NCBI GenBank assembly: GCA_016208585.1
Contig: JACQXR010000133.1
Span: 1 to 35,514, forward strand
DNA from: a candidate division TA06 bacterium
GTDB lineage: Bacteria > Edwardsbacteria > AC1 > EtOH8
Direction of reading: 5' to 3'
DNA: 35,514 nt
Positions 2,388 to 19,306 of the stretch are shown here, in pieces (positions within the stretch are counted from its first letter, which is position 1; each line of letters starts with the position of its first letter). A model generated the notes under the pieces. That model was not told the origin of the DNA, made no database searches, and saw nothing but the letters and a program-made list of their open reading frames with translations. A program made the translations under genes and the position numbers.

Positions 2388-2416
2388 TTGACACCGGAAA
2401 ATTGTTATGGTAGACT
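2388..2416 (+). promoter_or_regulatory. Sigma-70 promoter of the sigma-54 activator gene
   Basis: TTGACA (2388-2393), a 17-base spacer, then TAGACT (2411-2416). The expected transcription start is at about 2423-2424, at or next to the A of the ATG at 2424, so the message should have no 5' leader. The TTG of the -35 box could be mistaken for a start codon in frame with the gene; the promoter reading excludes that. Confidence 0.8.
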
Positions 2417-2423
2417 ATTACCC

Positions 2424-4694
2424 ATGAGTAACAGATGGCAGAGATACGAGTTGGAGACCAAGCTGGCCGGCTTTTTGATAGTGCTGGTGCTTTTGGTGAT
2501 CAATCTGTCCGGCATTTGGCTGGTTTATAAAACCAAATCCCGGATGGACTCGATTCAACTCAGCCATATGGAATTGTTGGGCGGCTTGGCCCAAGCCGAA
2601 ATGGAAAAAGCCAAGGATCTGCCGAAAGATTCCCTTTGGTCATCCTGGCAGCGCCTGGCCCAAAGGACCGGCTTGGTTGGCATCGGCCTTTTAGACGGAA
2701 ACGGCAGGTGGGTTATCAAATACGACAAATACAGGCCCTGGAACCTGACGCCCGAAAATTACGAAAAACCGTTAACCGCTATGCCGCCATCCGCCTCTTT
2801 CAGTGAGAACGGTTTGGCCATTTCCCCCGCCTATGGCAGGCTGGGGCTTTTCTATTTTACGGCTTTTTACAAAGCAGGCCAAGGTCAAAGCATCCTGGCC
2901 CTGGAATACCCGGCCGGCGAAGAAGCGGCCATTGCCCGGGCGGCCAATATCCAGGTATTGACCGGAGCGATAGGATTCGGCCTGATCAGCATCATCGGGC
3001 TGTTTTACCTGAGGAACATCTTTTCGCCTTTCCGGCAGATGGCCCGGAGCGCCAGGAGCAAAATGGGCGAAGCATCTTCTGACCGGGCGGATTCCGACGT
3101 GGACCTGGTGGTGAAAACCTACGATCAAATGATAGAGCAGCTTAAGGCCAAGGGTCAAACCCTGCAACAGCTTTACGACAACGCGTTGGACCGGGCCGAG
3201 CAGAGCGAGCTGATAAAAAAACAGATCGTGGACAGCATAGACAAGGCCCTGATCACCATCGGCAAAAACGGGGAAGTAACCTCGTTCAACCGGGCCGCGG
3301 CCCAACTGGCCGGCGGGGAAGAGGCCGCGCAGATTTCCCGCTGGCTGAAAGAAAACAATCTTTTGGGCCTGATAGAAAACAAAAAGCCATGGGTGTGGGA
3401 AGCCAAACACCCCAAATACGGCCTGAGGTACCTGCAGGCCGAACTGTATAATCTGGCCGACCCTGCGGGACAGAACACAGGCAGCATCATAGCGGTGACG
3501 GACATCACGGAGGCCAAAAACATGGAAGAACAGGCCCGGCTGTATGACGGCGCCCTGCTGATGGCCCAGGCTTCCCAAAAACTTTTGGAGAGGATCAAGC
3601 CGGAAATTGCGGCCCTGAAAGATCCGGCAAACGCCGCTTTAGCCCAGCCCGGACTCTGGCAAAAGCGCCTGTCCGAAATTGAGCGGGCGGTGGAAGACCT
3701 GGGCCAGTATCTGACCTACCAGCCGGCCGGAATCCCGGAAACATCGGGTTCGGAGATCATCCATGTCTCTAAAGGAATGTCCGATGCGCTGGAGATGGCC
3801 CAAAAGGTGGCCAAGACGGAAAGCACGGCGCTTTTAACCGGGGAATCCGGCACCGGCAAGGAGCTGGTGGCCCGGGCCATTCACCGCCAAAGCCCCAGGA
3901 ACAAGGGGCCGTTCGTATCCATCAATTGCGGGGCTTTGCCGGAAACGCTTTTGGAGTCGGAGCTTTTCGGCTACTTAAAGGGAGCCTTTACCGGGGCCTA
4001 CAAGGACAAGCCGGGGCTGTTGAAGGCGGCCGAGGGCGGCACTTTCTTTTTGGACGAGATCGGCGAACTGCCTCTTTCGCTGCAGGTAAAACTTTTGCGG
4101 GCGCTGCAGGAGCGCGAAGCCACCCCGGTGGGCGGCGCCAGGCCCTTCAAAGTTGATGTCCGGTTCATAGCGGCCACTAATCAGAATCCGGAACAATTGG
4201 TGAAATCGGGAAAATTCAGGCAGGATCTCTATTTCAGGCTTAACGTCTTTCCCATAGAACTGCCCCCGCTGCGCCAAAGGCCGGAGGACATCATCCTGTT
4301 GGCCGAGCATTTTGCGGAAAAACACTGCCGGAAAGTTAAAACTCCGGTCAAGCATTTTACCAGGGACAGCCTGGAAATTTTAACCGGCTATCAATGGCCG
4401 GGCAATGTCCGGGAACTGGAGAATGCGGTGGAGCGGGCGGTGGTGATGGCCGAGGGAAATCTGATCAAACCGGAGCACCTGAATATAACAGAAGGAAAAG
4501 TTCCAAACGATCCAAAGGTTGAAAAGGATTTGGGTTTACTGGAAGTTTCGGCCAGGGCGGCGGCCGCCTCCGAGGCCCAAATGATCAAAGAGATGTTGAA
4601 GGAGACCGGGGGGAACAAAAGCGAAGCTTCCCGTAGGCTAAAGATCAGCTACCGGGTGATGCTTAAGAAGATAAAAGATTATCAGCTGGAATAA
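2424..4694 (+). CDS. Membrane-bound sigma-54-dependent activator (PAS, AAA+, Fis-type HTH)
   Basis: A 756-aa regulator. The N-terminus carries TM1 (about 15-35), an extracytoplasmic sensor of about 140 residues and TM2 (about 176-196). A coiled linker and a PAS domain follow (about 266-365, [15 protein letters not shown] at its end). Residues 375-435 are a helical stretch in the place a histidine-kinase dimerisation domain would occupy, but no H-box or ATPase domain follows. The sigma-54 AAA+ module (about 445-680) is complete: Walker A GESGTGKE (473-480), GAFTGA (520-525), Walker B FFLDEI (541-546) and [14 protein letters not shown] Fis-type HTH ends the protein ([15 protein letters not shown]). 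It thus combines the sensor of PilS with the output of PilR and should hydrolyse ATP to open sigma-54 promoters. One such promoter lies 254 bases downstream, ahead of the pilin operon. There is no receiver domain. Confidence 0.93.
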
Positions 4695-4989: not shown

Positions 4990-5442
4990 ATGAAAGAAAA
5001 AGGGTTTACGTTAATAGAGCTGATGGTGGTGATTATAGTAATGGGCATCATGATGGCGATCGCCATCCCGAACCTTACCCGCAATCTCCCATATCGGAAC
5101 TTGATTAACGGGCGTGATCAGGTGAGGATTGACCTTTCTGCAGTCCGGCAACGCGCCATTACCCAGGACAGTGCCTACGGTCTTTACTCCCCCGCTGGTA
5201 GTCTCAATCAATATTCCCTGTTCCTCGACCGCAACAAGGACGGCACCTTTACTGGCGGGGAACCGGCTCTAAAAACCATGAAACTTCCCAATGGTATCAC
5301 CTTCACCCAGGGCTGGAACCTAAGTTTCCTCTCCAGCGGCCAGTTGCCCGGAGGCATGGGCGCCGTTACCGTCACGTTGACCAACACCAAGGGCATGCGC
5401 GATTCTATTCTCGTCATGTTGTCCGGTGCCGTCTTTCACTAA
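4990..5442 (+). CDS. FimT/GspH-like minor pseudopilin
   Basis: A 150-aa type IV prepilin. The leader and N-methylation site read MKEKG/FTLIELMVVIIVMGIMMAIAI-type, with glycine at -1, phenylalanine at +1 and glutamate at +5, followed by the hydrophobic assembly helix. The globular part is short, contains NKDGTFTGGEPALK and resembles FimT/GspH pseudopilins in length. A good Shine-Dalgarno (CGGAGG) precedes the ATG. It is the first gene behind the sigma-54 promoter and is followed by three more prepilin-type genes. It would be processed by a PilD-type peptidase (not in the window) and sit in or prime the pilus tip. Confidence 0.85.
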   Translation: MKEKGFTLIELMVVIIVMGIMMAIAIPNLTRNLPYRNLINGRDQVRIDLSAVRQRAITQDSAYGLYSPAGSLNQYSLFLDRNKDGTFTGGEPALKTMKLPNGITFTQGWNLSFLSSGQLPGGMGAVTVTLTNTKGMRDSILVMLSGAVFH

Positions 5443-5474: not shown

Positions 5475-5864
5475 ATGCGCACAATATCTAAACAAACCGG
5501 GTTCTCAATAATCGAGCTGTTGGTGGCCATCACAATCCTGGCGATTGTGGTCATGGGCATCGGCTCGCTGTTTGCTTCCGGGATGCGGGCCAGCACCCAG
5601 GTCAGGCTTCATAGCCGCGCGACCAGCCTGGCCGAAGCCACAATCGAGGAGTTGGAGCGGCTGCCAAGAACGGCCGCCGAACTGAGCGCCGGCAATCACG
5701 GCCCTGAGATCATTGATGGCATTTTCGTACGCAGTTGGAACGTCACGGTCAACTCACCGATCCGGGACATGCGGTCCGTTACCTTAAACGTGTCGTTCCG
5801 AAACATCGCGCGGAGCGACAGCACGAGGATCTCATTAACCATGTATCTGAGACCACGTATCTGA
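5475..5864 (+). CDS. PilV-like minor pilin
   Basis: A 129-aa prepilin with leader MRTISKQTG, cleavage before F10, and the segment FSIIELLVAITILAIVVMGI with glutamate at +5. The pattern of a helix, a region rich in SLAEATIEELE and a short beta-rich end is typical of PilV/GspI minor pilins. The last codons lie in a 14-bp tandem duplication (5844-5871): the second copy shifts frame and supplies the TGA stop, so the original C-terminus may have been longer or different. It lies 32 bases after the FimT-like gene. A repeat element separates it from the next pilin gene. Confidence 0.8.
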   Translation: MRTISKQTGFSIIELLVAITILAIVVMGIGSLFASGMRASTQVRLHSRATSLAEATIEELERLPRTAAELSAGNHGPEIIDGIFVRSWNVTVNSPIRDMRSVTLNVSFRNIARSDSTRISLTMYLRPRI

Positions 5865-5871
5865 GACCGCG
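5844..5871 (+). repeat. 14-bp tandem duplication at the end of the PilV-like gene
   Basis: Two adjacent 14-base units starting TATCTGAGACC (5844-5857 and 5858-5871) differ at one base. Because 14 is not a multiple of three, the duplication changes the reading frame; the PilV-like stop codon (5862-5864) lies in the second copy. Confidence 0.85.
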
Positions 5872-5890
5872 ATGGGATGCCTGCCTTTCC

Positions 5891-6096
5891 GGCTGGCCGT
5901 TGAGTATCCCACCTGGCCTCGATGCTTCGATACATTCACCACAAGTCTAGCTGGACCACTCGGCCAACCTGTCCGCCCCCGTTCACATAAACGGGGCAGG
6001 CTCCGCGCTGGCGAAGGAGGACGGCGGGGCGTACTTGTGCTGAACCCTTCGGTACCGCTCAGGATAAACTCCGTTGAAGCATCGAAACGGCCAGCC
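5891..6096. repeat. Inverted-repeat-bounded dispersed element in the pilin operon
   Basis: The 345-base gap between the PilV-like and PilW-like genes has nested inverted repeats at its ends: GGCTGGCCGTT (5891-5901) with its complement at 6086-6096, and CGATGCTTC (5920-5928) with its complement at 6076-6084. Inside are motifs such as GTGCTGAACCCTTCGG and CTCAGGATAAACTCCG, common in non-coding dispersed repeats of environmental bacteria. No convincing gene is present. The rest of the gap to 6209 is AT-rich and ends in the GGAGG ribosome binding site of the next gene. Confidence 0.6.
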
Positions 6097-6209
6097 AACT
6101 CAATGTCCGTAGGCCGTATTTTCCAATAGTGAATATTTGCCAAAGAGATATAACTGAGATCCGAGTTGCAAAAAATTTCAAAAGCTCAGACTGAGCTGAC
6201 GGAGGAACT

Positions 6210-9200
6210 ATGAAACGCAAGGGATTTACCCTAATCGAGTTGATGGTGGCGGTCACCGTGCTCGGCATCGTGATGGCCGCGATCATGGTGGTGGTCAACA
6301 ACGCGAACCGGGCCAAACGCGATAACGACCTGGTGATGGAGGCCCAGCAGCAGGCGCGGGCCGGCCTGGACATGGTGGTGCGCGACGTTAGGACCATTGG
6401 CTACGACATTCCGTTCGCCGGCAGCCAGCTCAGGGTCGTCTACGCGCGGCCGTTCGAGTGCATATTCAACAGCAATATCAGTCCCTACCCGGACAGCCAG
6501 AACATCAGGCAGCAGCCGCTGTGTTACGATCCGGCGATTTCGCCGACATGCCCCAATGCTTTGAACATCGCAGTGTTCTTTACCACCGGCGCCGAGACCT
6601 ACCGCTACACCATCGACTCCGACAACGATGGCGATTATTTCTCGGGCGCCGACAAGAGCGACGACGCGATCGAGCGGGGCACCACAAACCCCAACGACTA
6701 CGTGCTGGTGCGGCAGGCCTACGGCAAGATGATCTCGGGCACATACAGCGGGACCAACAACATCTATCCCGCGCTCAACCAGCCGGTGGCCCTGATCCGG
6801 GGGCCGGCCAACAGCACCGACTATACGGTAGAGCCGTTGTTCCAGTACTGGTACCGCCCGGCAGGGAGCGATACGTTGCGGCTATATGGCGACGCAAACG
6901 GCGACAAAACGCTGACTGGTGCCGAGCGAAATTTCGCCAACCCCTCGGCCGACATCCTGGCCAGCATCGAGGAGATCACGACCACCGTAACGGCGGAGAC
7001 CCGCAACCAGATCCGCGGCGTTTATAGGCAGGTGGTGGTGACAACCCGGACCAACCTGAACAATGTGCCGATCTCGTCCACCCGCTATACGGTCAGCGGC
7101 AGCTACACATATCCCGAAGCCGGCTCCAGCCCGGTCCCCGACGCCAATGTCTATATCAGCTCGGGCACGATGCAGACCACGAACTCGGCCGGAGCCTATT
7201 CGTTCACGGTGGACCCCGGCACCTACACCGTTACTCCGGAGAAGCTGATTGACGGAACAGGGTACTATTATCTGCTGAGGCATCCGCAGGACACGCTGGC
7301 CGACGCCTCGTCCGCGAGCGTCGCTAACCTGAACTTCAAATACGAGGCCATCCCCGACGGCGAGATGTGCCACATCACCGGCGAGGTGTACAACGACACC
7401 ATCGCGCCAATCGGCCTGCCGGCCATGCCGACCGCCGGCGAGCGCCGCATCGGCGGGGTGACCGTCACGGCCACCGGCTTCTCGTCCATAGCGGGTACGG
7501 AATCAACGATCATCTCGGTGAGCAAGATCACCAATTCCAGCGGCCAGTACGAGCTCATCGTTCCGATTGGAACCTACACCGTGACCGAGTACGATTCGGC
7601 AGGCTACTTCTCGACCACGCCGAACGACACCGTCATCACCATGGCGGCTATAGGGACGACCATTACCAAGAACTTCGGCGACACCAAGCTCCCGGGCGGC
7701 TTCATCAAGATCACGGTCTGGGCGGATACGAACAAGAATTTTCTCCAGAACGCGGGCGAGCCGCTCATTCCCAATGTCAAGTGCTACGTTACCAGGGGGG
7801 GCGCGCAGGACATCCCGGTCGCCAACGGGCTAACCGACGCCAACGGACAGGTATTGCTCCAAGTGCCCGCGGACACTGTGCTCTCGATCATCGAGGTCGA
7901 CCTGGACTCGATGTATTCTACCTGCGCCATCAGGCTGGGATACACGGCCGGATTAGACTCGGCGAACTACGACACCTTAAAACCACGGAGCCGGCTTGAC
8001 AGCATCATCGTGCTTAGGGACTCAACCTACCGGGTGAAATTCGGGGATGTTACCGGCTTTGTTACCCTCAACCTGGGGACCACCGAGCGGGTGCTTTCTT
8101 TGATTACCCCCAACCTGGGCGAGACCGTGGATCCCCCCGGCTCCAATGACAACAGCTACGGGAACGACCCCGATTTGGTGCTGGGCACGGTCAGCGGGGG
8201 CACCTCCAACCTGTACGTCTGGTACAACCGCTACAAGAGCGCCACCACGTCATTTAACTCTATCTTCCCGTCCGGCGGCGGCGGGGTGGCCGTCCCCGAC
8301 CGCTCCATTGACCTAGGCAATGACATCTGCGCAATAACCGCAGCCAATTTCAACCCCAACGTGTCCAGCGACTACGGCACCAGCGATCTGGTCTGCGGGC
8401 TGGGCAAAAACGCCACCAGCAACATCAAGTGGGAGCCGTCTGTGGACGGCAACCCCGCCAAGAATCAGGGCGATCTGACCGCGTTCATCGGCTTCGCCAC
8501 CGCCACCGAAGTCCTGAACACCGACGTTACCAGCGCCGATGCCGCCATCATCGTCAATGACACCACCTGCGATTTCGTGATCGGGACCAACGACAACGTC
8601 AACCAAGGCCATCTGGAGGTGTGGCGGAACTACCGGACCAAGAATGTTACGCCCCAATTCGTGCGGGACAGCGCCTACTACAAAGCCGATTTCGCCGGTA
8701 CCGTCGACTTTGGCGAGATCCGGACCATCGTGCTGGCCGACGTGGTGGACAGCTTGGGCACCGGCACCGGAGCGGGTTCCAAGGATGGGCTCCTGGACAT
8801 CATCGTCGGCACCAAGACCAGCGGCACCTGGCCCAACTACAGCGGCCAGTTGGTTATCCTAAGGCGGGCCGGCCAGCAGAAGCGGTTCGTGGTGGACACC
8901 TGCGTTGCCACCGCCGGCGCCTACATCAATGCCATTGCCACTTACAACCACGGCAATTACAAGGACCTGGCCATCGGTTTTCGACTGCCGGGGGCCACTA
9001 GTACCGACTATGCCGGCGCCCTGTCATTGCTGCACAACAACGCCAACGGCACCTTTACCCAGACCGCCAAAGTAGCCATAGCCGGCGAGGTAACCTCGGT
9101 GGCCACCGGCCGGATCGACATCGACAACATTCCCGACGTGGTCTGCGGCGTTAAGACCGGCCTGAACACCGGCAAAACCCTGGTCTTCTACCAGAGCCCC

Positions 9201-9383
9201 ACCGACTACCTGCCGTCGTCCGGCAACGATCCCTCGGGCGGCGCCTTCGGCGGCGAGGTGATAGCGGTGCGGACCGTCGCGTTCCGGCCGGTACCCGGCA
9301 AGACCGATATCGTGGTAGGCGAGCGGTTCGACCAAAGCGGTGTCAGCAAGGGCCGGATCGTAATCTATTTCAACAAGAATTAA
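6210..9383 (+). CDS. Giant PilW-like minor pilin with adhesin-type domains
   Basis: A 1057-aa prepilin. The N-terminus is MKRKG/FTLIELMVAVTVLG, with Glu at +5, and residues up to about 290 resemble PilW (LDMVVRDVRTIGYDIPF). Beta-sandwich domains of the carboxypeptidase-regulatory/Cna-B type follow: about 293-350 (NSAGAYSFTVDPGTYTVTPE), 387-480 (NSSGQYELIVPIGTYTVTEY) and an SdrD-B-like unit at about 494-590 (VWADTNKNFLQNAGEPLIPN). The C-terminal 400 residues (about 648-1057) carry FG-GAP/VCBS-like repeats (DLVLGTVSGGTSNLYVWYN, DIIVGTKTSGTWPNYSGQL, DIVVGERFDQ), suggesting a beta-propeller. PilW proteins are usually 250-350 aa, so about 700 residues of surface-exposed domain are added. It probably sits at the pilus tip and binds a surface or ligand, a role played elsewhere by PilY1. 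A strong Shine-Dalgarno (GGAGG) precedes the ATG. Confidence 0.85.
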   Translation: MKRKGFTLIELMVAVTVLGIVMAAIMVVVNNANRAKRDNDLVMEAQQQARAGLDMVVRDVRTIGYDIPFAGSQLRVVYARPFECIFNSNISPYPDSQNIRQQPLCYDPAISPTCPNALNIAVFFTTGAETYRYTIDSDNDGDYFSGADKSDDAIERGTTNPNDYVLVRQAYGKMISGTYSGTNNIYPALNQPVALIRGPANSTDYTVEPLFQYWYRPAGSDTLRLYGDANGDKTLTGAERNFANPSADILASIEEITTTVTAETRNQIRGVYRQVVVTTRTNLNNVPISSTRYTVSGSYTYPEAGSSPVPDANVYISSGTMQTTNSAGAYSFTVDPGTYTVTPEKLIDGTGYYYLLRHPQDTLADASSASVANLNFKYEAIPDGEMCHITGEVYNDTIAPIGLPAMPTAGERRIGGVTVTATGFSSIAGTESTIISVSKITNSSGQYELIVPIGTYTVTEYDSAGYFSTTPNDTVITMAAIGTTITKNFGDTKLPGGFIKITVWADTNKNFLQNAGEPLIPNVKCYVTRGGAQDIPVANGLTDANGQVLLQVPADTVLSIIEVDLDSMYSTCAIRLGYTAGLDSANYDTLKPRSRLDSIIVLRDSTYRVKFGDVTGFVTLNLGTTERVLSLITPNLGETVDPPGSNDNSYGNDPDLVLGTVSGGTSNLYVWYNRYKSATTSFNSIFPSGGGGVAVPDRSIDLGNDICAITAANFNPNVSSDYGTSDLVCGLGKNATSNIKWEPSVDGNPAKNQGDLTAFIGFATATEVLNTDVTSADAAIIVNDTTCDFVIGTNDNVNQGHLEVWRNYRTKNVTPQFVRDSAYYKADFAGTVDFGEIRTIVLADVVDSLGTGTGAGSKDGLLDIIVGTKTSGTWPNYSGQLVILRRAGQQKRFVVDTCVATAGAYINAIATYNHGNYKDLAIGFRLPGATSTDYAGALSLLHNNANGTFTQTAKVAIAGEVTSVATGRIDIDNIPDVVCGVKTGLNTGKTLVFYQSPTDYLPSSGNDPSGGAFGGEVIAVRTVAFRPVPGKTDIVVGERFDQSGVSKGRIVIYFNKN

Positions 9384-9439
9384 TGCGCAATGCGATCGCA
9401 GGGTCGGAGATCCGCCTGCGGCGGGAAAGGAAGGCTGAA

Positions 9440-10786
9440 ATGAAAAACCTGAAAAACCAGAAGGGCATAGCCTTGGTCATGGCGCTGATGATCGTTTTGC
9501 TGTTGTCGGTGATGGCGGCCGGCCTGATGTACACCGTAATCAGCGAAAAGCAGATCAACAGCAGCCGGCAGAGGAACGCCGAGGCGCTCTACGTAACCAA
9601 GGCCGGAACCTACGAGGCGATCGGCCGGATCGGGTACGGGTATAGTGTGGGCAGCGAGACGACCATCACCGAGGATCTGAATGCCGCCTCCGGCATAACC
9701 CCGAACTGGTGCTGTTACATCTTCCTCAACCCCACGCTAACAGGCATCTATTGCAAACGTTCGATGCAAAGCGGGACGATTTTGCCGTACACGGTTACAG
9801 GCACGACCCTTGCCGACACTGCCCAGGCTCTGGTGGTGACATATAAAACCTACGACGCCGACGGCAACGGGACTCTCGGTAAGGAAGAGGTATATTATTA
9901 CAACAACAGGACCCGGCAGATAACTTTGGGGCATACCGGCGGAACTCCGGCGGATGCCTACCCGGTGTTTCAAATCATCGCCCGCGGGCGGCAAGGCACG
10001 GCGCGTAAGACCATGATCACCGAGTTGGTCGTCACCTCGGCCAATTCCAACGTCAAAGCCGCGATCCGCAGCTATGCGCCGATAGTCTCCAGCGGAACGG
10101 TCAACATCTGCGCGCACAACCACCTGGCCACCACGCCTACCGGCCTCAATCCACCGAATTGCTATACGGCCAGGGCTGATACCGGATGGCATACGAAGAA
10201 TAAAGCGGTGCATGGCGACCTGTACCAGCATTGCACGGTCTGGGGAGATTCGTTTGCAACCAAAAATGTTAATTCATACTGCACCGAATGCGGCTGCCTG
10301 CCGGGATCGGAATCGAACAGCACGATAGATTACCACGGCTCGTCGACGAAATCCCGCGGGAACCCGGACGATATCACGGATTCACCGGCCCCCATGCCCA
10401 CACTGCGCGACATGTTGGGCCTGAGCGTCACGGACTATAACAGCATTACATGGAACAGCAATACCAACCCGGTGTCGGGATTTACCAAGGTGACAGGCGA
10501 TCTGTCCATCACCGGCGGTTTCGCGGACGGCGAGGGCGTGTTGTATGTGACGGGCGACTGTAAGATCGTGGGCAATTACAATTTCCGGGGGCTGATATAC
10601 TGCGAGGGCCAGTTCACAAACTCCGGCACCAGCTGGATCCTCGGCGCGGTGGCGGCCGCAGGAGGCATAGAGACAAAAGTATCCGGCAACACCACCATTA
10701 TGTATTCCCGGGAAATGATATCGCGGGTAATTCAAAAAGCTATGGGCGGCGGGGCGACCATCATCATGCAACGCGAAGTCGATTAG
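9440..10786 (+). CDS. PilX-like minor pilin with an extended C-terminal domain
   Basis: A 448-aa protein. The N-terminus is MKNLKNQKG/IALVMALMIVLLLSVM, followed by INSSRQRNAEALYVTKAG, the PilX N-terminal signature. Like PilX and GspK it lacks the glutamate at +5. The C-terminal 250 residues are unusual: a Cys-rich stretch (YCTECGCLPG) and a beta-rich end (LYVTGDCKIVGNYNFRGLIY, then SWILGAVAAAGGIETKVSG) like polymer-forming or beta-helical domains. The ATG at 9440 is preferred because AAGGAAGG lies at the right distance and the leader then has normal length. An upstream ATG at 9383 overlaps the PilW-like stop (TAATG) and would add 19 charged residues. Last gene of the operon; a terminator follows. 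Confidence 0.8.
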   Translation: MKNLKNQKGIALVMALMIVLLLSVMAAGLMYTVISEKQINSSRQRNAEALYVTKAGTYEAIGRIGYGYSVGSETTITEDLNAASGITPNWCCYIFLNPTLTGIYCKRSMQSGTILPYTVTGTTLADTAQALVVTYKTYDADGNGTLGKEEVYYYNNRTRQITLGHTGGTPADAYPVFQIIARGRQGTARKTMITELVVTSANSNVKAAIRSYAPIVSSGTVNICAHNHLATTPTGLNPPNCYTARADTGWHTKNKAVHGDLYQHCTVWGDSFATKNVNSYCTECGCLPGSESNSTIDYHGSSTKSRGNPDDITDSPAPMPTLRDMLGLSVTDYNSITWNSNTNPVSGFTKVTGDLSITGGFADGEGVLYVTGDCKIVGNYNFRGLIYCEGQFTNSGTSWILGAVAAAGGIETKVSGNTTIMYSREMISRVIQKAMGGGATIIMQREVD

Positions 10787-10813: not shown

Positions 10814-10846
10814 GCCGTGCCGGATTTTTCCGGGGCGGCTTTTTTG
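10814..10846 (+). terminator. Rho-independent terminator of the pilin operon
   Basis: A GC-rich stem (10814-10823 with 10830-10839, with a wobble and one mismatch in the middle), a six-base loop and a run of six T, located 27 bases after the PilX-like stop. Confidence 0.8.
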
Positions 10847-10903
10847 TTTGACTTTTGGCTGTTTGACTTTTGGCTTGACTTGCCGGGTAAAATCCATTAT
10901 CAT
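10846..10903 (+). promoter_or_regulatory. Sigma-70 promoter upstream of tRNA-Thr, with duplicated -35 boxes
   Basis: TTGACT (10875-10880), 17 bases, TATCAT (10898-10903) form a good promoter with a start near 10910. A 15-base unit, GTTTGACTTTTGGCT, is repeated in tandem (10846-10860 and 10861-10875), adding two more TTGACT boxes upstream that are not correctly spaced. The 140-base leader to the tRNA holds an imperfect hairpin (AGCGATACC with GGATATCGCT) and no gene I can recognise. Confidence 0.6.
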
Positions 10904-11048
10904 TAAAGGTCATTGAGTATTTGCAGAAGGGTTAAAGATTTTTTTCATATCAGCGATACCCTGAAGGATATCGCTAGAAAACATCAAGGCTTGCACTGAG
11001 CGGTGCCAAAGCGCCTCTGAGGAGGCCTCCAAAGGTATAAATCCATAT

Positions 11049-17176: not shown

Positions 17177-19306
17177 GTGATTTCAAACTTGAAAAAATGC
17201 GCGACGGCAACCAGCCTGCTTCTTCTTATGTCGTTGTATGCTTGTAACGCTTGGGCCGTGCCGGCTTATGACGGAAAAGGGCCTGAACCGCGGCTGGCCA
17301 AGAACGGAATGTGGCTTAATCAGGCCAATCCGCAGATGAAGGGCAAAAAGATTATCGGCAGTTGGAAGGCTTTGATCATTCTGATAGACTTTCCCGATTA
17401 CCGCTGGGATCACCAAGCCGACACCAATTTCGTGAACGACAGCCTGTATTATACTACGAACCATTACGACAGCCTGGCCAACAGCCTGGGCACCTTCCGG
17501 CATCCCGGGTGCGTCAGCAACGTCACCGGCAGCATCAGGGACTTTTATATTGAAAATTCCTACGGGCTATTTGATGTGGTGTCGGCCACCACGATATGGT
17601 ATACCGCTCCGGACACGTTCAACTATTACTGCAATACCGATGGGATTGCCGGGACAGATGACGATTACGGTTTTGGGTATTATCCCAATAACGCACAAAA
17701 GTTGGTGGAGGATGCGGTGGCCGCTGCGGACCCCGGTGTGGACTTTTCGCAATACGACAACGACCTCGACGGATATGTGGATGCATTGTACGTGGTCCAT
17801 GCCGGCCCCGGGGCCGAGGCGTTGTCCTACCCTACCAGGGCCAACTACATCTGGTCGCATGCCTGGGGCATAGACACCCAGACCCGGGACGGGGTTAACA
17901 TATCAAGCTATTCCATGGAGCCGGAGGACGGCAAGGTGGGAGTATTCTGCCACGAGTTCGGCCATGTCATCGGCCTGCCCGACCTGTACGACTATACCTA
18001 TCTTTCCAGCGGAGTGGGAGAGTGGTGCGCCATGGCCGGCGGCAGCTGGGGCCACCGGGATTCGGCCGATCTCCGAGGAACAGCTCCCACCCATTTTTCG
18101 GCTTGGTGCAAGCAAGAACTGGGCTGGGTCAACCCCGTCAACCTGACCCACAACCTGCTGGGCCAGACGATCCCGCCGGCCGAGCTCAGTCCGGTCGTCT
18201 ACCGGCTCTGGGACGATGGCGACTCCACCAGCAGCCAGTATTTTCTGGTGGAGAACCGCCAGAACATAGGGTTCGACAGCGGGCTTACCCGCCGGCAATT
18301 GGACTACGGGCTTCCCCGGGGCCACGGCCTTTTGATCTGGCATGTGGACGAATTGGTATACGGCAATGACGACCGCACCCACAAAATGGTGGACCTGGAG
18401 GAATCCAGCCCGGTAAACATAAACGGTTTTTATCTGGAACACTTAGATACAGTGCGGACCCTTCCCCTGGATAAATACTTGTACAATGGAAACCGGGGTG
18501 ATGATGGAGATCCCTGGCCCGGTTACTGGTTGACGGATTCCGATTCCGTTCACTATAGCGGAAGCAGGGATAAATGCGACTTCAATCAGTTTTCCGTTCC
18601 TTCATCCAAAAACTATGCCGGGGCCAATACACTGGCGGGCGCTGAAAATATAACGGAGAACGGGGTCAACATCACGGCCGATCTTTTTGTGACTATAGAC
18701 GCATCGGTGGCCTTTCCAGGTCTGGGCGATACCTTGGACCAGGCTGATAGCGTGAATATTATCTGGCGCTCTTCGGCGGCCGGCGGTGTGGCCTGCGACA
18801 GCCTGTACTTCAGCAGCGACAGCGGCAGCGCCTGGAGCCTGATCGGTTTTGCGAATAGCGGTGACACCTTGTACCCGTGGACTGCCCCCGCTATCAGCTC
18901 AGGCCGTTGTTTCATCAGGGTCGTTACTATAACTAATGCAGGGATCAAGGCCAACCATTTAAGCGATATGTTCGCCATAGGCCTGACCGGTGTGGCAGGA
19001 AATACGAATGAAAATCTCAAGGACTTGAAATACCGTCTGCTGCCGGCCCGGCCCAACCCTGCTCTTGGCGGCATAATCACCGTTTCTTTTGAGATTCCCA
19101 AGCCTCAAAAAATCGAACTGAGGGTCTACAATATTGTGGGGCAAACGGTCAAAGTCCTGGCCGGCGGGTTTTTTCAGGCCGGACGCCACGAAATCAAGTG
19201 GGATGGCAGGAACGAAAAGGGAATGAAATCCGCTCCCGGGATCTATTTGTATCAGTTGAAGACTCCGGACTTCAGTAAAATAAACAAGCTGGTCATCGTC
19301 AAATAA
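17177..19306 (+). CDS. Secreted M6-family zinc metalloprotease with C-terminal sorting domain
   Basis: A 709-aa secreted endopeptidase. The N-terminus is a signal peptide (ATSLLLLMSLYACNAWA, cleaved near residue 28). The start is uncertain: GTG at 17177 as given, or TTG at 17189. The catalytic domain carries the M6 zinc motif HEFGHVIGLPDLYD (His259, Glu260, His263) and a Met-turn (EWCAMAGGSWG). Immune inhibitor A of Bacillus is the best-known relative. Residues about 510-600 form a beta-sandwich-like region. The last 90 residues (FEIPKPQKIELRVYNIVGQ, then APGIYLYQLKT) are a FlgD-Ig-like C-terminal domain of the kind used for sorting to the cell surface in FCB-group bacteria. The 150 bases upstream hold no clear promoter. 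It likely degrades extracellular protein for nutrition. Confidence 0.9.
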   Translation: MISNLKKCATATSLLLLMSLYACNAWAVPAYDGKGPEPRLAKNGMWLNQANPQMKGKKIIGSWKALIILIDFPDYRWDHQADTNFVNDSLYYTTNHYDSLANSLGTFRHPGCVSNVTGSIRDFYIENSYGLFDVVSATTIWYTAPDTFNYYCNTDGIAGTDDDYGFGYYPNNAQKLVEDAVAAADPGVDFSQYDNDLDGYVDALYVVHAGPGAEALSYPTRANYIWSHAWGIDTQTRDGVNISSYSMEPEDGKVGVFCHEFGHVIGLPDLYDYTYLSSGVGEWCAMAGGSWGHRDSADLRGTAPTHFSAWCKQELGWVNPVNLTHNLLGQTIPPAELSPVVYRLWDDGDSTSSQYFLVENRQNIGFDSGLTRRQLDYGLPRGHGLLIWHVDELVYGNDDRTHKMVDLEESSPVNINGFYLEHLDTVRTLPLDKYLYNGNRGDDGDPWPGYWLTDSDSVHYSGSRDKCDFNQFSVPSSKNYAGANTLAGAENITENGVNITADLFVTIDASVAFPGLGDTLDQADSVNIIWRSSAAGGVACDSLYFSSDSGSAWSLIGFANSGDTLYPWTAPAISSGRCFIRVVTITNAGIKANHLSDMFAIGLTGVAGNTNENLKDLKYRLLPARPNPALGGIITVSFEIPKPQKIELRVYNIVGQTVKVLAGGFFQAGRHEIKWDGRNEKGMKSAPGIYLYQLKTPDFSKINKLVIVK

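Follow-up and report, generated by a model that had tools for sequence, protein, structure and literature searches.

A giant minor pilin with a predicted propeller alternates with PilY1 across ten related genomes

The window analyzed here is a 35,514-nucleotide stretch from a candidate division TA06 bacterium (contig C133 of genome G000, an assembly of 2.51 Mb in 167 contigs that is 95.8% complete), and on its forward strand it contains an open reading frame (ORF) at 6210-9383 that encodes an unusually large minor pilin of 1057 residues, referred to here as the giant pilin. We consider it probable, at roughly 70%, that this protein is a modular minor pilin that has taken over the propeller role of PilY1 at the pilus tip, and that it travels in an exchangeable tip cassette. 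Judged from gene content, the giant pilin and PilY1 appear to be mutually exclusive in the ten genomes of the phylum that were compared, and relatives of the giant pilin are found in several other bacterial families.

The giant pilin begins with MKRKGFTLIEL, in which a predicted prepilin leader, MKRKG (6210-6224, forward strand), precedes a mature protein that would start at FTLIE and have glutamate at position +5 (E10), and the Pfam N_methyl model PF07963 matches residues 2-25 over its cut-off (E 9.4e-9). The pilin module comprises residues 1-290 (6210-7079), with its boundary taken from an alignment of eight giant-pilin members. It is followed by a predicted stalk of about three SdrD_B/Cna-B-like domains, the first at about residues 291-384 (7080-7361; placed by the alignment and by an SdrD_B match at 298-373 of homologue L019), the second at about residues 385-490 (7362-7679; placed by an SdrD_B match at 404-471 of homologue L016), both with approximate boundaries, and the third at about residues 491-613 (7680-8048), which holds the best SdrD_B match in the giant pilin itself (residues 502-547, 30.3 bits against a Pfam cut-off of 29.7). 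A weak SpaA trace lies at residues 437-491 (E 0.41). The remainder, residues 614-1057 (8049-9380), is assigned to an FG-GAP-type propeller from FG-GAP matches in homologues, seven blade motifs and low-confidence fold matches; the only FG-GAP_3 match within the protein covers residues 935-978 and falls under the Pfam cut-off (E 0.004). On the sequence of this protein alone the propeller call is thin, and it is the homologues that settle the predicted domain string.

All eight aligned members match N_methyl and SdrD_B (best E 2.9e-35 for the latter), six match FG-GAP_3 (best E 6.9e-16) and three match FG-GAP, such that the feature that defines modular pilins, an extra C-terminal domain that is not pilus-specific, is present in the family as SdrD_B in 8/8 and as FG-GAP_3 in 6/8. 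Several homologues also show PF13620, and in the homologue from the metagenome-assembled genome (MAG) UBA4783 SdrD_B matches three stretches (121 bits) and FG-GAP_3 matches four (59 bits). When the alignment profile is compared with solved structures, the stalk matches SdrD (1.9e-14), and the propeller gives only weak integrin-type matches (E 0.008 and 0.037). Seven DIVVG-type blade motifs occur in the giant pilin at residues 655, 726, 788, 863, 919, 976, and 1033, with spacings of 71, 62, 75, 56, 57, and 57, one off-register match at residue 772 being left out of the seven. Seven motifs were not reached in any of 10,000 tail shuffles; the pattern was written after viewing the giant pilin, so this test is biased for that protein. 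The bias is smaller for the other members, whose five to seven motifs were not equaled in any of 2000 shuffles each. A Foldseek search with an AlphaFold2 model of the propeller with a mean predicted local distance difference test score (pLDDT) of 47.9 returns a list dominated by what we take, from the protein names, to be beta-propellers, and among the matches listed the best TMq is 0.50, to CRTAC1, an FG-GAP protein. VIA-align superimposes the model on a WD40 propeller with a Z score of 24.8 and a root-mean-square deviation of 3.2 over 304 residues. These fold matches support a propeller but do not prove one.

The initial annotation of the window, made from sequence alone, had described a 1057-residue ORF with a prepilin leader, Cna-B/SdrD-like domains and FG-GAP/VCBS-like repeats; the coordinates, length and leader agree with the present analysis, the Cna-B/SdrD-like domains are recovered in the window protein as well as in every aligned member, and the FG-GAP repeats, which are sub-threshold in the window protein, pass the cut-off in homologues. 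Its expectation of discrete domains is supported by sequence families and propeller fold matches, and it is less well served by the structure models, which are weak for the propeller and for a homologue tail alike. Its reading of the protein as an adhesin built into a minor pilin and displayed at the tip is partly supported, adhesion and tip display being conjectural, and it did not include the alternation with PilY1 at one locus or the association with a long PilX.

FG-GAP and integrin-alpha-type propellers bind calcium through DxDxDG-type loops. A crude pattern for such loops has no match in the tail of the giant pilin and has three to four in the homologues from UBA4783 (three), G143 (four), G216, and G181. 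Because the pattern is missing from its propeller, calcium control of the PilY1 type cannot be assumed for the giant pilin.

The phylum sample consists of ten genomes, all of one family. Seven of them (G000-G004, G007, and G008) encode a giant pilin of 1042 to 1087 residues, and in none of these seven was a match to the PilY1 family model PF05567 found. The model matches exactly the three genomes in which no giant pilin was found (G005, G006, and G009), where the PilY1 proteins are 1191-1193 amino acids long and score 36.5, 43.9, and 64.1 bits, all over the cut-off. The statement in the initial annotation that the operon lacks pilY1 can accordingly be extended to the G000 genome as assembled, in which neither PF05567 nor a PilY1 query from the same family finds a match, by a search sensitive enough to detect the gene in three sister genomes. 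When the PilY1 protein of G005 is used as query, matches occur in 3 of 16 genomes and in 0 of the 13 giant-pilin genomes. Fisher's test on the distribution in the phylum (7/0 versus 0/3) gives p 0.008 with the genomes treated as independent. The genomes with PilY1 do not form one clade in the tree of RpoB, where two changes are needed, although the deciding fork has support of just 92/87 and is not a starred one; completeness is no higher than 88-89% in two of these three genomes.

The alternation can be localized in G005, the single PilY1 genome for which the upstream flank is available, since the contigs of G006 and G009 stop short of it. In G005 the gene for the sigma factor, two other upstream genes and the regulator are arranged in the order seen in the window, and its sigma-54 activator is 43% identical to that of the window over 758 amino acids. 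After the regulator come fimU, pilV, a stand-alone pilW of 321 amino acids, a short pilX, and pilY1. G006 and G009 likewise have a short pilX and then pilY1, the pilX of G006 being cut by the contig end. From the gene order in G005, PilY1 stands where the seven other genomes have only the giant PilW and a long PilX. That each genome has either the giant pilin or PilY1, and never both, suggests two interchangeable pilus-tip designs.

A second line of evidence concerns the giant-pilin loci themselves. By RpoB (95-96%) and by the regulator (82%) G000 groups with G007 and G008, its congeners, yet the tail of its giant pilin is 43-44% identical to those of G001-G003, which belong to another genus, and 28-31% identical to those of G007 and G008. 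PilX, PilV, FimU and the pilin module follow the same order of identity as the tail, and the pilin genes of G004, a member of the genus of G001-G003, side with those of G007 and G008. A tree of 13 giant pilins resolves two classes, each with 100/100 support, and in this tree the genus clades are rejected by the approximately unbiased test (p-AU 5.6e-5 and 2.0e-6). At the DNA level, blastn of the window against G007 gives about 80% identity up to 5031, within the early fimU codons, and then only short, weak matches; against G008, the identity stops at 5045, and a match of 93 bases at 76% resumes at 10814-10906, just past pilX. The left boundary of the exchanged cassette would then lie at 5031-5045, at about codons 14-18 of fimU, and the right boundary at 10814-10906. 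In the case of the congeners G002 and G004, the main stretches of the upstream flank are 82-91% identical and the downstream flank 84-90%, with no blastn match between 8632 and 14259, an interval that covers fimU to pilX; G002 and G003, which share one class, match throughout the cassette. Since the pilin classes do not follow the genera and the DNA boundaries are sharp, the tip cassette appears to have been exchanged as a unit. The left boundary differs between the window and the G004 cases because the G004 regulator is unusually divergent. That sigma-54 regulator (L018, 6132-8390) is only 50% identical to those of its congeners despite RpoB identity of 96-97%, and the regulator may have been exchanged too.

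The fusion of pilin and propeller proposed for the window recurs in six other genomes of the phylum, in UBP1 MAGs and in four genomes of outside families. Two UBP1 MAGs of a second collection, UBA4783 and UBA4771, carry the gene, the UBA4771 copy with a run of N, and the family profile, searched against 290 genomes with scoring limited to the top two candidates of each, finds pilin and propeller in one frame in G216, G203 (two loci), G143, and G181. Counting only genomes with both parts in one frame, there are at least 11 propeller-pilin genomes, including the seven of the phylum. A total of 83 of the 290 genomes match the profile at all, the remainder mainly through the pilin leader or a Cna-B-like stretch. 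Profiles of the separate parts recover pilin, stalk and propeller in all five outside proteins, SdrD_B and at least one FG-GAP model are over cut-off in 5/5, N_methyl is listed in 4/5 (not G181), and the profile of residues 1-290 matches relatives in the four outside families and UBP1. No relative was found among viral contigs scanned with the family profile. Large pilins with a related pilin module and no recognizable propeller were also seen in G163, G189, G228, and G086 (ORFs of 944-1199 amino acids; L089, L090, L091, and L092).

The neighboring genes recur with the giant pilin. A profile of the long PilX picks out the next gene downstream of the giant pilin in 5/5 outside loci and in UBA4783. 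With the seven loci of the phylum included, the long PilX is beside the giant pilin in 13 of 14 propeller-pilin loci, and in the remaining one, UBA4771, the sequence breaks off after the start of pilX; because of this adjacency we regard propeller-PilW and long PilX as a conserved pair. Against the PilY1 operons the same profile gives nothing more than a weak trace, in G006. In all seven outside loci pilV precedes the giant gene, and fimU is upstream in five of the seven; in G181 it is matched downstream, and for the second G203 locus a fimU was not convincingly found.

In the window itself, the cassette lies downstream of a sigma-54 activator (2388-4694, forward strand; Sigma54_activat E 4.6e-70) and begins with a fimU/gspH-like minor pilin (4990-5442, forward strand; N_methyl and GspH) and a pilV/gspI-like minor pilin (5475-5864, forward strand; N_methyl, with the PilV model TIGR02523 under its cut-off at E 8.5e-7). 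The giant pilin is the third gene of this fimU-pilV-pilW-pilX operon, the minor-pilin position that the initial annotation had given it and the one on which its assignment to PilW depends, and it is followed by the fourth pilin, a long PilX of 467 amino acids as ORF (9383-10786, forward strand), with PilX_N over cut-off. The PilX of the window lacks glutamate at +5, as is reported for PilX proteins (PMC7541494). By eye, Cys- and His-bearing stretches of the long PilX are alike in the window and UBA4783, and perhaps mark a metal or disulfide site. Between pilV and the giant pilin the window has a gap of 345 bases (5865-6209), compared with roughly 0 to 40 bases in relatives, which holds an ORF of 85 amino acids without a family match and is possibly an inserted repeat.

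Outside the window, G000 encodes three PilB-like ATPases that score 656-671 bits, just under the PilB cut-off of 675.65, and, on the same contig, a PilT (479 bits, cut-off 319) and a PilC-like protein, with a second PilT-family gene on another contig. PF00437 has matches in all 14 genomes searched. A secretin is present in 9/10 phylum genomes, G000 included (not in G001). With PilB-like, PilT, PilC-like and secretin genes in G000, a retractile type IVa pilus machine appears to be encoded. The three PilB-like ATPases are in tandem on contig C68 (L142, 2306-8029), each with an MshE-type cyclic di-GMP motif over cut-off, and are followed by the PilT and PilC-like genes.

Further upstream in the window are an ECF-like sigma factor (53-682; Sigma70_r2 and r4) and an LTXXQ protein (1795-2307), with two genes without firm family between them. 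Elsewhere G000 encodes the type IX secretion sortase PorU (L143, 409-4338; 597 bits, cut-off 420), and an M6 peptidase with a FlgD_ig tail at 17177-19306 of the window may be a cargo.

The explanation that we favor is one in which a PilW-type pilin module carries a seven-bladed FG-GAP-type propeller by way of about three SdrD_B/Cna-B-like stalk domains. Prepilin peptidase would process the giant pilin, which would join FimU, PilV and the long PilX in the priming complex of the type IVa pilus and so end at the tip, where contact with surfaces or partners would be made by the exposed propeller and not by a separate PilY1. In other species the minor pilins and PilY1 are reported to prime the pilus and to leave with it at its tip, with PilX stabilizing PilY1 (PMC7541494 and PMC13190605), and in Myxococcus xanthus loss of PilY1 is reported to cause failure of piliation (PMC7541494). 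A stalk of about three Ig-like domains may be long enough to pass PilX, and the enlarged PilX may pack with propeller-PilW. At least two interchangeable cassettes would occupy the same locus under the same regulator, one with the propeller-pilin and long PilX and the other with PilW, a short PilX and PilY1, and a cassette would be replaced as a unit by recombination.

A number of observations weigh against this explanation. The alternation in the phylum rests on ten non-independent genomes, and in the wider set PilY1 is found in 0/11 propeller-pilin genomes versus 45/279 others, a difference that by itself is not significant (p 0.22). Among the Pfam and NCBIfam matches of the giant pilin at the thresholds used there is no PilW model. 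The AlphaFold2 model of residues 604-1057, built from three sequences, is of low confidence, with a predicted template modeling score (pTM) of 0.54 beside its low pLDDT, and that of the whole UBA4783 tail (691 amino acids, with two further rows) reached pLDDT 31.4 and pTM 0.26 and was set aside. There is also a geometric demand, because in the tip order modeled for other species, PilA, FimU, PilW, PilV, PilX and PilY1 (PMC13190605), PilW is not outermost, and the stalk must therefore reach past PilX.

The alternative that we take most seriously, while still doubting it, is that the propeller is no substitute for PilY1, whose position would be vacant or taken by some unrelated protein encoded at another locus, with the propeller-pilin serving as an additional adhesin. 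No sequence relationship between the two propellers can be detected, PF05567 giving no match to the giant pilin at E up to 1 and none in the giant-pilin genomes of the phylum, and type IV pili without a recognizable PilY1 may be common, given that 245 of the 290 genomes have no PF05567 match and 45 have one. An added adhesin does not sit well, however, with the strict alternation in the phylum, at one locus where this is visible, nor with the tie between propeller-pilin and long PilX in the operon. It is unlikely that the two sequence classes instead reflect an old duplication with differential loss and no exchange between lineages, for while the classes are deeply diverged, with tail identity of about 30%, there is one cassette per locus between the same flanks, the congeners G002 and G004 differ with abrupt DNA boundaries on both sides, and the giant-pilin tree rejects the genus clades.

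Quite unlikely, too, is a role for the operon as the tip of a type II secretion-like pseudopilus, in which the propeller would recruit or push out substrates and not serve adhesion. The same weak models name FimU GspH-like and PilV GspI-like, two more prepilin genes are encoded elsewhere on contig C27, and the PilB-like ATPases also score for GspE, all of which a pseudopilus would accommodate; what argues for a pilus is that PilT-type retraction ATPases and PilX_N on the fourth pilin are over their cut-offs and that the same locus in the sister genome G005 holds PilY1, a type IVa pilus protein. A gene-fusion or assembly artefact of one MAG, which an assembly of so many contigs as G000 might invite, has a negligible probability and is refuted by full-length, uninterrupted homologues in six other phylum genomes and in outside families.

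Parts of this arrangement have precedents. The PilB and PilC pilins of Streptococcus sanguinis (PMC8179133; see also PMC9934059) also combine a pilin module with a grafted functional module that is not of pilus origin (vWA or lectin-like), and they have been argued to be tip-exposed and adhesive (PMC8179133). The graft in the giant pilin differs in being a multi-domain stalk with an FG-GAP propeller on a fimU-pilV-pilW-pilX operon, and in occurring with a secretin-bearing type IVa pilus machine, where PilY1 otherwise stands. The same source reports 264 modular pilin architectures in InterPro, with PF13620, of carbohydrate-binding-like fold, among the frequent ones; FG-GAP is not named in the text consulted, and the 264 architectures may already list the giant-pilin type. 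PilY1/PilC proteins of the PF05567 family (PMC7541494 and PMC13190605) are alike in having a C-terminal seven-bladed propeller, in being coded with fimU, pilV, pilW and pilX, and in being proposed at the tip, and in the sister genome G005 PilY1 occupies the same place as the giant pilin. PilY1 is a separate, secreted, non-pilin protein, in many cases with a vWA domain, whereas the giant pilin starts with a prepilin leader, bears blades of the FG-GAP type and does not match PF05567.

For the comC/fimU/pilV locus of Acinetobacter, recombination is described as exchanging variants of the tip adhesin together with linked minor-pilin variants (PMC10374093), though there all variants are of the PilY1 type (ComC), while here a PilY1 design stands opposite a pilin-fused propeller, the latter in two deep classes. 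The Kil/Tad tips of M. xanthus (PMC12075869) resemble the present case in their large tip pilin with an extra C-terminal domain and in having several interchangeable tip gene sets per pilus, and differ in that the pilins are of the Tad type and the extra domain is unlike any known structure, the word propeller being absent from the text of that source. Full-text searches of the open-licence literature returned no pilin with an FG-GAP propeller and no PilY1 replaced by one. Modular pilins and tip-cassette recombination are already known, and it is the giant-pilin architecture and the alternation of PilY1 with a propeller-pilin that were not found in that literature.

A broader proposal, to which we assign even odds, is that type IVa pili have two evolutionarily separate tip solutions, the PilY1 complex and a PilY1-free pairing of propeller-PilW with long PilX that would both prime and arm the pilus, that the two are subject to allelic swaps at one chromosomal locus across genera, and that several deep lineages carry the second one unnoticed. 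PilY1 is regarded as belonging to the core of the type IVa tip, where it primes assembly, binds surfaces and signals. A system in which none is found and a pilin-borne propeller of another family takes its position would separate what is essential, a propeller atop four minor pilins, from historical accident. The PilY1-bearing sister genomes amount to a ready-made natural experiment. The lack of PilY1 in a genome does not equal the lack of a tip adhesin and, if the proposal is true, a second tip design has gone unnoticed in several deep bacterial lineages, since no PilY1 search finds it. Pilus-tip specificity would then change in one recombination step, and cassette exchange of this kind may be how bacteria without cultivated relatives retarget their pili.

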